Of a stretch of DNA of 35,186 nucleotides, positions 1-6,531 are shown one piece after another. The notes below the pieces were generated by a model. It was not told the origin of the DNA. It did not search any database and was given only the letters and a program-made list of their open reading frames with translations. The position numbers and the translations under genes are program-made. The first letter of the stretch is position 1. Every line of letters starts with the position of its first letter. This DNA is from an uncultured Clostridia bacterium (GTDB taxonomy: Bacteria > Bacillota > Clostridia > TANB77 > CAG-508), in the NCBI GenBank assembly GCA_904384205.1, contig CAJFJY010000017.1, positions 1-35,186 on the forward strand, given 5' to 3'.

Positions 1-128
1 GTTTTTTCAACCATTCTCAAATTACCATTCTTTATCTTTGGTTCACAATTACTAAAAGTGCAAGCCCATTCAATCTTAGAACGTAATTCTTTTTCTATTG
101 CTATTTCTCTTTTAACTGTAGATATCAT
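1..128 (-). CDS. 5' part of a CDS running off the window start, unknown product (MISTVKREIAIEKELRSKIEWACTFSNCEPKIKNGNLRMVEK...)
   Basis: Open frame on minus from ATG at 128 to the window edge; AAAAAAGGAGG Shine-Dalgarno-like sequence upstream; absent from the ORF track because it is truncated. Confidence 0.5.
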   Translation of the reverse strand, partial: MISTVKREIAIEKELRSKIEWACTFSNCEPKIKNGNLRMVEK

Positions 129-190
129 ATCACAAAAACCTCCTTTTTTCAATATTTTGAGGCCATTATTTACTTTTATTTCCAAAAAGC

Positions 191-218
191 AAAAAATAAG
201 CCGACTAAATCGACTTAT
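191..218 (-). terminator. intrinsic terminator/attenuator in the leader of the partial CDS 1..128
   Basis: Minus strand ATAAGTCGA-TTTAG-TCGGCTTAT followed by a T run, between upstream leader sequence and the start codon at 128. Confidence 0.55.
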
Positions 219-473
219 ATATTGTGAAATGATATTCACTTTTTTTGTTTTCTTAAAACTCACTTGTTGTAATACTTTCAAGTGGTTCGACGAAAACGCA
301 TAATGGAGCGAGTGTCGTAGATATTTACAACTTTTCTCTCATTAACGATTGATATAAAAATCAATCAAACTATATATAGATTAACAGATTATTGAAAAAA
401 TTTCAAGATATTTACTATAAAAATTTTTGCAAATATTTGTTTGTTTTCTATCGCCTTATTGTACAATATATGT

Positions 474-479
474 TATACT
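474..479 (+). promoter_or_regulatory. extended -10 promoter (TGtTATACT) for the small ORF 556..675
   Basis: TG-T-TATACT at 471-479; no good -35; predicted start about 486. Confidence 0.45.
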
Positions 480-555
480 AACTGACATAGGAAATGATGA
501 TAAGCAGATGTGGTTTTGCCACCAATTTATACGAATCTTCGTAGGAGAGGTGGTG

Positions 556-675
556 ATGTTTATGATTAAAGTGATACTATTTTTTATAATATCCTTAATG
601 TTATCTTTAACATTAAACGTTGCCTTGACAGCAGTTCTGTATAAGAACTGGGTTGACAAGCAACTACATAAATAA
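556..675 (+). CDS. 39-aa hydrophobic small protein MFMIKVILFFIISLMLSLTLNVALTAVLYKNWVDKQLHK, candidate type I toxin-like peptide
   Basis: Strong SD AGGAGAGG 5 nt before ATG 556; single TM segment with a charged tail; immediately followed by a hairpin terminator. The longer 427..675 ORF has no comparable start signal. Confidence 0.55.
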   Translation: MFMIKVILFFIISLMLSLTLNVALTAVLYKNWVDKQLHK

Positions 676-719
676 AAAAAGCTCACATCTGTAAACTTGG
701 CGGTTTATATGTGAGTTTT
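674..719. terminator. bidirectional intrinsic terminator shared by the small ORF and the antisense RNA
   Basis: CTCACAT/ATGTGAG plus GTAAAC/GTTTAT stem; T7 run on the minus side (674-680), TTTT on the plus side. Confidence 0.7.
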
Positions 720-764
720 CTAATCTATACTGGCAAGACCACGTTTGTGGAATTGTCATTTCCT
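674..764 (-). ncRNA. candidate ~90-nt antisense RNA convergent with the small ORF
   Basis: Near-consensus minus promoter TTGACT-17-TATAAT (794-799 / 771-776), no ORF with SD, ends at a hairpin with T7. Confidence 0.55.
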
Positions 765-770
765 ATATTT

Positions 771-799
771 ATTATACACACATTGTTTAGAAAAGTCAA
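771..799 (-). promoter_or_regulatory. promoter TTGACT-N17-TATAAT for the candidate antisense RNA
   Basis: Motif and 17-nt spacing read directly from the sequence. Confidence 0.7.
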
Positions 800-815
800 C
801 AAAATTTACTTAAGT

Positions 816-1805
816 TTATCTGTCAATTCCATCAACAAATGGTTCTCTATAATCTCTCATTTGTGCTGTTACACTTCTCAAATTTTGTAAATATCTATTT
901 GAATTATACAAGTATGAAGGATCTTCATATCCAAAATTTGCATATGAAGCTCTTTTTAATAACCCCATATATTGTACTTCTTTTATAAATGATGGCATTT
1001 GTCCGTCTCTAGAATACTCATTTAATACACTGTTAAAAAAGTTTGGAGATAGAGCTCTACTAGATAACATACGTAATGCTATCATATCATTTTCTTCTTT
1101 TCCTATACCTCTTAAAGTTCTTGCGAACATTGTTGCTGGTTCTTGTAGCTCTCCATAATAGTCAAAATTTGATTGATATGGCTGTCCATCAAATAATCTT
1201 CCATTTTTGTAAAATGCTAGTTGTGGTCTTCTTTTACCAGAAAATTCATAAACAAAATCTTCAGCCCTATCTTGCGTTGTAGCTTCATCTAGCATTGAAA
1301 AACCGTCATAAATTAATTGAGCGTGTTCTTGGGTTAATCTTCCTTGTCTTATATTTTGATTACAATATTCTATAACTTTTTTCATCCATCCATCATTTAT
1401 AACGTGACCTAATTCGTGAGCCATATATAATCTTGTTCTTTCTTCTCCTGTCAAGTTTTTACTACTACGCAAATCTGGATTTATAAAAATCATTTGATTT
1501 TCAACTTCCGTTCTACCATAGATACCTCTTTCTTCCTTTGGCAAAACTGAAATTGTCTTAACCTTATTCATAGTAGAATTAAGTATATGATTAAATGTTT
1601 GAGGAGATTTTTGAAAATTATAATATAAATATTCTTCTATATTCTCTATTCCTCCTGCTAGTGCATCGGCATCGTGTTCACTATTTCTTACTTGTCCATT
1701 TCTAATCTGTTGTTGAAATTGAGCTGTACTCTTTTCTACTAATACATCCATATATACAGACATAACTTCATTATATTGTTTAAAATCATATTTTAAATTG
1801 TACAT
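816..1805 (-). CDS. putative zinc-metallopeptidase-like protein (HELGH), otherwise unknown
   Basis: ORF 816..1901; likely start MYNLKYDF at 1805 preceded by GGAGGTG; MAHELGHVINDG matches HExxH. Confidence 0.6.
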   Translation of the reverse strand: MYNLKYDFKQYNEVMSVYMDVLVEKSTAQFQQQIRNGQVRNSEHDADALAGGIENIEEYLYYNFQKSPQTFNHILNSTMNKVKTISVLPKEERGIYGRTEVENQMIFINPDLRSSKNLTGEERTRLYMAHELGHVINDGWMKKVIEYCNQNIRQGRLTQEHAQLIYDGFSMLDEATTQDRAEDFVYEFSGKRRPQLAFYKNGRLFDGQPYQSNFDYYGELQEPATMFARTLRGIGKEENDMIALRMLSSRALSPNFFNSVLNEYSRDGQMPSFIKEVQYMGLLKRASYANFGYEDPSYLYNSNRYLQNLRSVTAQMRDYREPFVDGIDR

Positions 1806-1916
1806 ATATACACCTCCTCGTTTACCATGAATTATTATATAAAACGAGCATTTTCTAATGTTATCACCTTTTATTATAACATGTTTTATAGAATTTTTCA
1901 AATTTTTCCATGCCTT

Positions 1917-2219
1917 TCACACATAATTAATAGTGTTAAACAAATGCAATGCAACTTTATTCTGTTCTTTTGTTTCCATCTCCATAAGCTTAGCCATTGC
2001 AAACATTACAAGTTTATACTTTCCGAAATTTATGAGTGTTGTTCTATATTCTTCATCTATGTCTTTTAACATAGTATCGAATTTATCATAATTTTCATTA
2101 GTATTATATATAAGACCAGACCATTTACTATGGCTCATACATATTGCTAATCTTAATTTATCTTTTATATCCATATCATTTATCATATCTATTAAATATT
2201 TTACTTTTTCATTTTCCAT
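1917..2219 (-). CDS. hypothetical protein (100 aa)
   Basis: Complete ORF co-oriented with neighbouring mobile-element genes. Confidence 0.5.
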   Translation of the reverse strand: MENEKVKYLIDMINDMDIKDKLRLAICMSHSKWSGLIYNTNENYDKFDTMLKDIDEEYRTTLINFGKYKLVMFAMAKLMEMETKEQNKVALHLFNTINYV

Positions 2220-2237
2220 ATTCTAATTTCCTCCATT

Positions 2238-3626
2238 TTAAAATCTTGTATCATTATTTTTCTTTTTAATTTTATTATTCTTATTTTCATTTGGTATAGT
2301 TACTTTTCTTAAAATGTTATTAGCAATTTCATTATCGTTATCATCAAATATTCCATTCTTATATAAATCATCACTAACTATTTTATAATTTTGGTCATTA
2401 TCATAAGTTATCTTCTTATGAAAGTGACTCATTAAACTATGCCAAAAGCCTTTGAATTTCTGTAATTGTACTTTTAGATTTTCTTTTTCTTCTTGTAGTT
2501 TAATAATAATCTTATCTTTAGCAGATAATTTATCCTTTAAATTACTGATTTCATCATCTTTTTGTTCTATTTGATATTGAAGTGAACGATTTTCTTGACC
2601 TATTTCAAGTGTATACAATTCAAAATCTTCAATAGCTACATTTAAGTCATTTACACTTCTAACAGTCTGAGTAACATCAGTTACGTTTTCAATATAATTT
2701 TTGATATTTTCTATATTCTCGTTTGAAATAAGTTTATTATTTTTATCTAGCAAAGGCGATTTTAGATTATCTAATATTTGAGAAATATCTTTACTTGTAT
2801 TATCAAGTTTTTTAGTTTGTTTATTAGCATTTTCTAACTTTTGTTTTTGCTTTTCTAGTTTTTTCTTCATTTCTCTATAATTGCCCATTTCATTGACATT
2901 GATATCTTGATTTCTACCTTTTTGTTTAGTTTTAAGTTTACTATCAACATCATAAAACTTGTTATAAGACTTTATACAAGCATTTCTCATTTTATCTTGT
3001 ATTTCAGAAAGTAAAGTTTTAGTAAATAGTTGTGATTTACCAATTTGTTTTTTCATACCTCTTTTACAATTATCTATTACTGGAATACCAATAACGTGCA
3101 TATGTGGAGATGTTTCATCATAGTGTATTGTAGCATTTGCTATCTTAAAGGTAGGGAGTATCTTAGATAAATCTTGAATTTGCTCATTATATACATCTGT
3201 CATTTTATATCTATACTCATTGTCTTTATCTTGCCAGAAGTCCATATCTCCAAGCTCAATAATAATTTCACAAGCAATATCATTTTGAGAATCACACACC
3301 TTTTGAAAATAGTTTTCTATTTTTCTATCGTTCCTAGTTTGTTTATTATTAAATTCAATTCTAGCTTGTTCAAATTCATCTAAATATACTTGCTTAACAT
3401 CTTCTACAATATCATTTGTTCCATATATAGTTGTAATAAGTTCTCTTTGATTATCATAATCTCGTAAATTATGCTTATTTGCTTTTGATAAATCTTTTGC
3501 ATTTTGAATAGCATTATTTGAAAATGAGGTAGTACCTGATACATTTCCTTTTGATACTTTCCTTGCTAGTTTACTCTTATTCTTATCACTACCCAAGTGA
3601 AAAGAATATGCTAATTCTTGTTCCAT
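2238..3626 (-). CDS. MobV/Pre-type relaxase (plasmid recombination enzyme family)
   Basis: Motif NATIHYDETSPHMHVIGIPV typical of MobV (HxDExxPHxH), coiled-coil C-terminus; oriT-like hairpins just upstream. Confidence 0.85.
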   Translation of the reverse strand: MEQELAYSFHLGSDKNKSKLARKVSKGNVSGTTSFSNNAIQNAKDLSKANKHNLRDYDNQRELITTIYGTNDIVEDVKQVYLDEFEQARIEFNNKQTRNDRKIENYFQKVCDSQNDIACEIIIELGDMDFWQDKDNEYRYKMTDVYNEQIQDLSKILPTFKIANATIHYDETSPHMHVIGIPVIDNCKRGMKKQIGKSQLFTKTLLSEIQDKMRNACIKSYNKFYDVDSKLKTKQKGRNQDINVNEMGNYREMKKKLEKQKQKLENANKQTKKLDNTSKDISQILDNLKSPLLDKNNKLISNENIENIKNYIENVTDVTQTVRSVNDLNVAIEDFELYTLEIGQENRSLQYQIEQKDDEISNLKDKLSAKDKIIIKLQEEKENLKVQLQKFKGFWHSLMSHFHKKITYDNDQNYKIVSDDLYKNGIFDDNDNEIANNILRKVTIPNENKNNKIKKKNNDTRF

Positions 3627-3660
3627 TAAAAGCCCCTCCTTGTAATTTCTTCGAAGCCAC

Positions 3661-3781
3661 AGGACTTTGACCTTGTCATAAGTCCTAACCCCCTATGAGT
3701 TATGACGTGCCATCATAACTCGGGGGCTCTGCGAGGTAATAAATTTTCTCCCACAGTGATAAAATTTATTCAAATTACCTC
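3661..3781. other. candidate origin of transfer (oriT)
   Basis: Three consecutive inverted repeats upstream of the relaxase: AGGACTT(T)GAC..GTCA(T)AAGTCCT; CCCCC-tat-GAGTTATGA-CGTGCCA-TCATAACTC-GGGGG; GAGGTAATAAATTTT..AAAATTTATT..ATTACCTC. Confidence 0.6.
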
Positions 3782-3875
3782 ACACAAAACTTATATTGCT
3801 ACCTGCAAATATAAATTTGTTCTCGTTAATTTGACTGTTGTAAAATGGCAATAACTAAAGTAATAGTTGCAACAA

Positions 3876-5850
<1,975 letters not shown>

Positions 5851-5855
5851 CTATC

Positions 5856-5899
5856 AAAAAAGAGACATCAAAGTACATACAAGTACTATTGACATCTCT
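5856..5899 (-). terminator. attenuator-like terminator directly upstream of the recombinase SD
   Basis: Minus RNA AGAGAUGUCA...UGAUGUCUCU (two GU pairs) with nested AGTAC/GTACT, then U6, then SD AGGAGGG. Confidence 0.65.
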
Positions 5900-6018
5900 T
5901 AAATCCATTTATCACGTAATAAAATACAATATAATTGTAATATAATATAAATCTTTCAAAGTACTCATAAATTTATATATAGTTCTCGCCGAATAACTAT
6001 ACATAATTAATTGCCTAT

Positions 6019-6046
6019 ATTATATCACGATTTAAGAAAATGTCAA
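6019..6046 (-). promoter_or_regulatory. promoter TTGACA-N16-TATAAT driving the recombinase leader
   Basis: Consensus hexamers on minus at 6041-6046 and 6019-6024. Confidence 0.7.
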
Positions 6047-6057
6047 TTTTTTACAGA

Positions 6058-6327
6058 TTAAATTTTTTTCAAATATTCTTCTAATTCAGATAATCGGATT
6101 TTTTGTACTAAATTAGAGATATAAACATCATTAGAATAATTGAAAACTAGAAATGTAGTATCTTTCGCAATTACTCTATGCGGTTCAATGTAAGAAAGAT
6201 TAGTATTTTCAATCTTTCTAATACTACCATTTATAAACTCTGGAGTAACTTTTGCAAACTCACATATAAATTCAAGCCTTTGTTTTAGACTTTCTTCAAA
6301 TTGTAATTCTTGCTTAATTATCTTCAT
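6058..6327 (-). CDS. hypothetical protein (89 aa)
   Basis: Complete ORF with upstream AAAGGA SD-like sequence. Confidence 0.55.
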   Translation of the reverse strand: MKIIKQELQFEESLKQRLEFICEFAKVTPEFINGSIRKIENTNLSYIEPHRVIAKDTTFLVFNYSNDVYISNLVQKIRLSELEEYLKKI

Positions 6328-6381
6328 TTATTTGCACCGTCCTTTCTATCGGATAATTTTTTATTTGTCATTTTAGACAAT

Positions 6382-6414
6382 AAAAAATCAACCAGATTTA
6401 GTTCTGATTGATTT
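6382..6414 (-). terminator. terminator downstream of tRNA-Gly
   Basis: AAATCAATCAGA/TCTGGTTGATTT hairpin followed by T run on minus. Confidence 0.65.
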
Positions 6415-6457
6415 CATATCTATCTGTTCTATAAAAAAGTTCGAACAGAAACGTTAC

Positions 6458-6531
<74 letters not shown>

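Follow-up and report, generated by a model that had tools for sequence, protein, structure and literature searches.

The locus considered here raises the question of whether a 39-codon reading frame, faced across a shared hairpin by a convergent promoter, is the toxin gene of a type I toxin-antitoxin module and, if so, of which family. It lies near the left end of a 35,186-nucleotide stretch of DNA from an uncultured Clostridia bacterium (the window), which is one entire contig of a 1.49-Mb genome in 86 contigs. A first-pass annotation had proposed such a module, laid out like Fst/par and carried by a mobilizable element. Comparison with related genomes suggests that the cassette is probably a type I toxin-antitoxin of a new family and works as an addiction module for the tRNA-targeting integrative mobilizable element that carries it.

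Anatomy of the cassette

Comparison of ~125 cassettes added to the anatomy listed in Table 1. The ORF with its strong Shine-Dalgarno (SD) sequence, both promoters and the hairpin all lie where the first-pass annotation had placed them, as does the run of seven T residues on the minus side of the hairpin, and the antisense promoter is widely kept among the other copies (Table 1). The small hydrophobic peptide, with a best 19-residue hydropathy window of 2.5 and a single transmembrane (TM) segment, is encoded behind its own promoter and SD, and the antisense RNA gene overlaps the toxin mRNA through the terminator hairpin, the predicted site of RNA-RNA interaction. These are sequence-level traits of a type I system. 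Both predicted RNAs start with ATAGGAAATGA..GGTTTTGCC, so that the two leaders form an inverted repeat at the borders of the cassette; the mRNA-leader model (R1) also scores the antisense RNA leaders.

Signal scans of the window returned two promoter sites, versus 2.9 expected by chance in such AT-rich DNA, and no terminator under strict rules. Since neither scan rises above chance in AT-rich DNA, the case must rest on conservation. Two features of the window copy speak against the preferred reading: the toxin promoter has a poor -35 hexamer, which is TTGATT or TTGCTT in relatives, and only four T residues follow the terminator on the toxin side. An antisense mini-ORF (664-759) was set aside, being by eye not conserved among copies.

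Table 1. Features of the cassette, its host element and related cassette-only elements (window coordinates, or locus identifier for copies in other genomes)
Feature	Position	Strand	Details
Predicted toxin, 39-aa membrane peptide, subfamily A	556-675	+	translation MFMIKVILFFIISLMLSLTLNVALTAVLYKNWVDKQLHK
SD of the peptide ORF	544-550	+	GGAGAGG, from sequence
Toxin-mRNA promoter	451-479	+	extended -10 TGTTATACT at 471-479; -35 TCGCCT at 451-456; spacer 17
Predicted toxin mRNA	about 487 to about 719	+	~230 nt
mRNA 5' leader	487-555	+	begins ATAGGAAATGA; shares homology with the antisense RNA (its first ~45 nt), opposite strand
Anti-SD hairpin (predicted)	518-555	+	GCCACC 518-523 pairs the SD region; apical stem TACGA/TCGTA 530-534/539-543; SD 544-550
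Leader arm of predicted 5'-3' long-distance pairing	503-518	+	AGCAGATGTGGTTTTG; partner 678-693
Shared bidirectional terminator hairpin	678-719 (stem about 680-716)	both	5' arm also predicted to pair with leader; T4 after plus side, T7 after minus side
Predicted antisense RNA (antitoxin)	about 764 down to about 674	-	about 90 nt, from sequence; promoter conserved in 115/125 cassettes
Antisense RNA 5' hairpin	739-750	-	CCACAAACGTGG; compensatory variants in other copies
Antisense RNA promoter	771-799	-	TTGACT-17-TATAAT; 11/12 consensus match
Integrative mobilizable element, 6.2 kb	304-6464	.	direct repeats TGGAGCG 304-310 and 6458-6464
Element cargo, 336-aa protein	816-1826	-	HELGH zinc-protease-like motif; no Pfam match
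Element backbone	1917-6327	-	100-aa ORF; Mob_Pre relaxase 2238-3626; 208-aa ORF; serine recombinase 4462-5838; 89-aa ORF
tRNA-Gly(TCC), integration target	6458-6531	-
Right end of second, tandem element of the same kind	1-310	.	89-aa-ORF homologue 3-281, then ..GGTTCGACGAAAACGCATAATGGAGCG
Cassette-only att-flanked element	L163		507 bp, tRNA-Leu
Cassette-only att-flanked element	L255		578 bp, tRNA-Gly
Cassette-only att-flanked element	L057		591 bp, tRNA-Gly
Cassette-only att-flanked element	L060		599 bp
Cassette-only att-flanked element	L081		639 bp
Cassette-only att-flanked element	L171		741 bp

Distribution of the family and selection on the peptide

A protein search recovered the peptide in 31 of 55 related genomes, and a profile built from 23 sequences extended this to 187 of the 385 genomes searched in the order, spanning 30 of 48 genera, with one to seven copies each. 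Outside the order, two marginal matches came from other members of the class; 298 additional genomes from the phylum gave no match. A DNA pattern matched public genomes in at least 120 places, almost exclusively in metagenome-assembled genomes of gut Clostridia, and the leader pattern had zero matches in a reversed-pattern control; a match in Eubacterium sp. 14-2, devoid of the cassette shell, was discarded as chance. Phage, plasmid and IMG/VR collections gave no cassette match, and Pfam, NCBIfam, PHROGs, PDB and Rfam gave no credible match to cassette or peptide, in line with the initial impression that the peptide belongs to no recognized family. Conservation of the whole cassette had been suggested at the outset as a check: the ORF, convergent promoters, shared terminator and ~90-nt antisense RNA recur together as one unit across gut Clostridia of one order, and aligned cassettes are conserved from the toxin promoter through the antisense -35, with nothing conserved beyond.

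Conservation of the reading frame, another check named there, points the same way. Judged from codon comparisons, the peptide frame is under purifying selection, with a pN/pS in the true frame of 0.39-0.48 over the whole ORF, and of 0.39-0.53 when codons covered by the search pattern are excluded, versus 0.65-2.7 in shifted frames. Subfamily A includes the window peptide as well as an IYI/WTNKQ branch; subfamily B peptides (e.g. MIEAVLLEIIYLLLFGLVVETIIVFALIILVIILSK) occupy the same shell, so by sequence comparison one regulatory shell is host to at least two peptide subfamilies. The peptide at L335, MVESALIIITYLLFYGLVAMTIINVALLIIICWLLHRQ, has B and A motifs together (TI-NVALL), and A and B are therefore probably one superfamily. 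The genome of the window has three shells, A in the window and B on contigs C15 and C13. Upstream of the toxin promoters of many A2/B copies (e.g. L018, L031, L255), a conserved TGTTCGCTTG motif overlaps the -35 region and is a possible regulator site; it is absent from the window copy.

Decayed copies also occur. Some carry a 5' truncation, frameshift or premature stop yet retain the antisense gene, and both orphan antisense genes and toxin-dead copies exist. In three toxin-less scars (L326, L329, L343) the ORF and terminator are deleted, and the toxin promoter and leader are joined via a GTGGTTT direct repeat to the antisense leader and promoter, leaving the two leaders fused into a palindrome with two convergent promoters. 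In three other copies (L044, L160, L178) an insertion-sequence-like insertion lies inside the shared terminator, adjoined in L178 by an IS3-like transposase.

Multiple copies, contig breaks inside cassettes, inverted repeats and palindromic scars could also describe a non-coding, MITE-like mobile repeat, whose ORF would be incidental and whose inverted leader repeats would be transposon ends. This is highly improbable, given the in-frame purifying selection and the conserved SD; moreover, the promoters lie outside the inverted repeat, conservation stops at the promoters, and the real element ends (att) are distinct sequences 180 bp away.

Predicted RNA structure and antisense specificity

The primary toxin mRNA is predicted to be structurally locked, a further type I trait, by an anti-SD hairpin and a covarying 5'-3' pairing. 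Across the leaders compared, the anti-SD hairpin is strongly covarying: 96% of 99 distinct leaders can form an apical stem with 5 bp or more, versus 25% after shuffling, and 53 different apical stem sequences retain pairing (TACGA/TCGTA, CACAAC/GTTGTG, GATAGT/ACTATC, CTCGA/TCGAG and others). The anti-SD segment pairs with the SD region at -13.1 kcal/mol versus -8.5 when shuffled, and the SD region is paired with a mean probability of 0.79. RNAalifold returned no consensus structure for the MAFFT leader alignment because MAFFT shifts the stems, and per-sequence stems and swap tests were used as evidence in its place.

The second pairing involves a leader segment, AGCAGAUGUGGUUUUG, that is complementary to the 5' arm of the terminator over 13-17 bp and changes together with terminator type (CTCACATCTG, AAACCATTCTGC, AACACATTCTAC, CACTACATTTTGC). 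Over 31 distinct terminator types, cognate leader-terminator pairs averaged -14.5 kcal/mol versus -11.7 for non-cognate pairs; none of 5000 permutations reached the observed value, and a reversed control gave -6.9 kcal/mol. These comparisons point to a predicted 5'-3' lock that covaries between types. In the window mRNA, the locked (-63.8) and terminator-closed (-65.1) folds are nearly equal in energy, and neither leaves the SD unpaired; a point against the preferred reading is that the fold of lowest energy retains the terminator instead of the lock.

The antisense RNA, in the copies aligned, has its own covarying 5' hairpin, with compensatory variants such as CCGT/ACGG, AACCGC/GCGGTT and AGTCAC/GTGACT. 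Pairing of the antisense leader with the mRNA SD in trans was rejected, being no better than swapped or shuffled pairings (some fam-1 and pooled means, spoiled by empty segments, were left out of this test). Among the three cassettes of this genome, predicted mRNA-antisense interaction energies are -45 to -51 kcal/mol for cognate and -2 to -8 kcal/mol for non-cognate pairs, and the three are predicted by this model to be mutually orthogonal.

Host element and cassette-only elements

The cassette had been placed on a mobilizable element from the outset, and it does lie inside one. The att-bounded 304-6464 element has a relaxase, a recombinase and att direct repeats at a specific target; its repeat at 6458-6464 is the 3' end (CCA) of tRNA-Gly(TCC), and the sequences of its two ends are found again in other elements of the genus. 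The window cassette begins 183 bp (~180) from the left end. A placement outside the mobile element, prompted by the relative L220, which has the cargo gene but no backbone, was overturned by the att repeats and the left end at 304.

Three further observations concern the element itself. The HELGH cargo, a possible metalloprotease, is rare in the genus (7 of 147 genomes). Homologues of the Mob_Pre relaxase occur in 52 of 144, often in several copies and many of them broken, an abundance and breakage that suggest a very active element family. Its members (the window element; L361, L364, L057, L163) share a TGGNGC end and use a serine recombinase, yet are integrated at the 3' ends of tRNA genes of many kinds, sites that a review of integrative mobilizable elements ascribes to tyrosine-recombinase elements (PMC5704250).

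Of 146 distinct cassettes, 22 have the same left end 166-196 bp upstream of the leader and one further cassette has it at 90 bp, which places 23 of 146 (16%) near an element end versus 0.7% of random positions. Nearly all cassettes with a tRNA gene within 700 bp (30 of 32; Gly, Leu, Thr, Arg, Cys, Gln, Met) face its 3' end, and tandem arrays occur, as at L167, where three cassettes lie within 1.4 kb beside a tRNA-Gly. A precise empty site was sought, and the orthologous flanks lacking the cassette were too diverged. The remaining 123 of 146 cassettes have no recognizable element end beside them, and the proposed addiction function may therefore not apply to every copy; most are flanked by ordinary chromosomal genes, among which no neighbour recurs. 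Those distant from element ends may be relics, or may have been retained in some other role. At L183-L187 and L191 the cassette runs right up to where a downstream gene begins, with the antisense -35 just upstream of that gene's SD, a position conserved across species.

This chromosomal setting, with the strong conservation of the peptides, would suit a small membrane peptide that is not a toxin but a regulatory or stress peptide whose level is tuned by the two RNAs. We consider this unlikely: several mutually orthogonal copies per genome, orphan antisense genes, toxin-dead copies and the element-end location fit selfish addiction better.

Some att-flanked elements contain the cassette and nothing else (Table 1). 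Integrative mobilizable elements (IMEs) often carry toxin-antitoxin genes, and CIMEs, att-flanked elements without integration genes, arise by accretion in tandem beside full elements (PMC5704250). The full element here has a serine recombinase at tRNA 3' ends, and the att-flanked remnant, unlike a typical CIME, holds only the toxin-antitoxin cassette in ~0.5-0.75 kb. CIME accretion is itself known; the part of the literature covered by our search contained no att-flanked element limited to a toxin-antitoxin cassette. Tentatively, a ~0.5-0.75-kb cassette with two att ends might be a mobile satellite having the addiction module as its only gene, using in trans the recombinase and relaxase supplied by full-size relatives and building up in tandem at the 3' ends of numerous tRNA genes, where diverged terminator and lock sequences would avoid cross-neutralisation.

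Relation to known type I systems

Fst/par of pAD1 combines a convergent toxin mRNA and small RNA, a bidirectional terminator that acts as interaction site, an SD-sequestering 5' stem and a single-TM peptide, with direct repeats DRa and DRb providing complementarity in trans (PMC7472228). The likeness proposed in the first-pass annotation stands for the layout: convergent promoters, bidirectional terminator, a toxin mRNA of ~230 nt, SD-sequestering 5' stem and single-TM peptide are common to both. It fails elsewhere. The leaders here are inverted repeats, whereas those of Fst/par are direct repeats crossed by both transcripts, and the cassette has in addition the predicted 5'-3' lock and an antisense RNA of ~90 nt. 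Could the peptide nonetheless be a diverged Fst toxin within the par layout? The shared RNA arrangement (PMC7472228) and a Trp between TM helix and charged tail, present in the window peptide and many A members, would agree with this. It is nevertheless very unlikely: the Trp is missing from several A members and most of B, the P/D/S/TxxxG-type TM motif is absent from the cassette peptides examined, and no Fst/Ldr match was found in Pfam or NCBIfam for 23 A members (E<=1), nor at E<=10 for nine (Pfam) or seven (NCBIfam) B members.

In aapA/IsoA of Helicobacter and Campylobacter and in hok/sok, the full-length mRNA is closed by a 5'-3' interaction together with anti-SD hairpins (PMC6733600), and both features are predicted for the cassette. 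However, the 3' end of aapA/hok mRNAs itself carries the anti-SD, whereas here the 3' partner would be the 5' arm of the shared terminator, with the SD masked by a separate leader hairpin; by profile search, the peptides are unrelated. Type I systems of Clostridioides difficile (CD2517.1/RCd8 and relatives) encode toxins of 34-59 aa with Lys-rich tails and are associated with prophages or CRISPR. They share with the cassette a convergent, overlapping pair of small membrane toxin and antisense RNA in Clostridia and a link to mobile-element stabilisation (PMC6563280, PMC7699646); no sequence match was found, and no phage copies of the cassette. In its anatomy the cassette thus resembles Fst/par in layout and hok/aapA in its predicted 5'-3' lock, and is a member of neither.

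Proposed mechanism and significance

For a type I addiction module, we infer transcription of both RNAs, toxicity, 3' processing and addiction in the following sequence. The toxin mRNA would be made in a locked form, its SD held in the leader hairpin, and the leader could also zip onto the terminator 5' arm, joining the two ends of the mRNA. Transcribed from the stronger of the two promoters, the antisense RNA would bind the terminator hairpin of its own mRNA, and pairing would extend through the overlap to give an inert or degraded duplex. If the element were lost, the short-lived antisense RNA would be depleted first; leftover mRNA would lose its lock, perhaps by 3' trimming, and the peptide would then enter the membrane and stop growth.

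The cassette would represent an extensive type I family that had escaped description and has no entry in the searched protein and RNA family libraries. It occurs in uncultured gut Clostridia, for which a review names few type I systems beyond those of C. difficile. The shell that regulates it appears to join an Fst-like layout, an end-to-end lock of the hok/aapA kind and an inverted-repeat leader that is novel, and its hundreds of naturally diverged copies make antisense specificity and orthogonality directly testable. Should the cassette-only elements prove mobile, few mobile elements maintained by addiction alone would be smaller.
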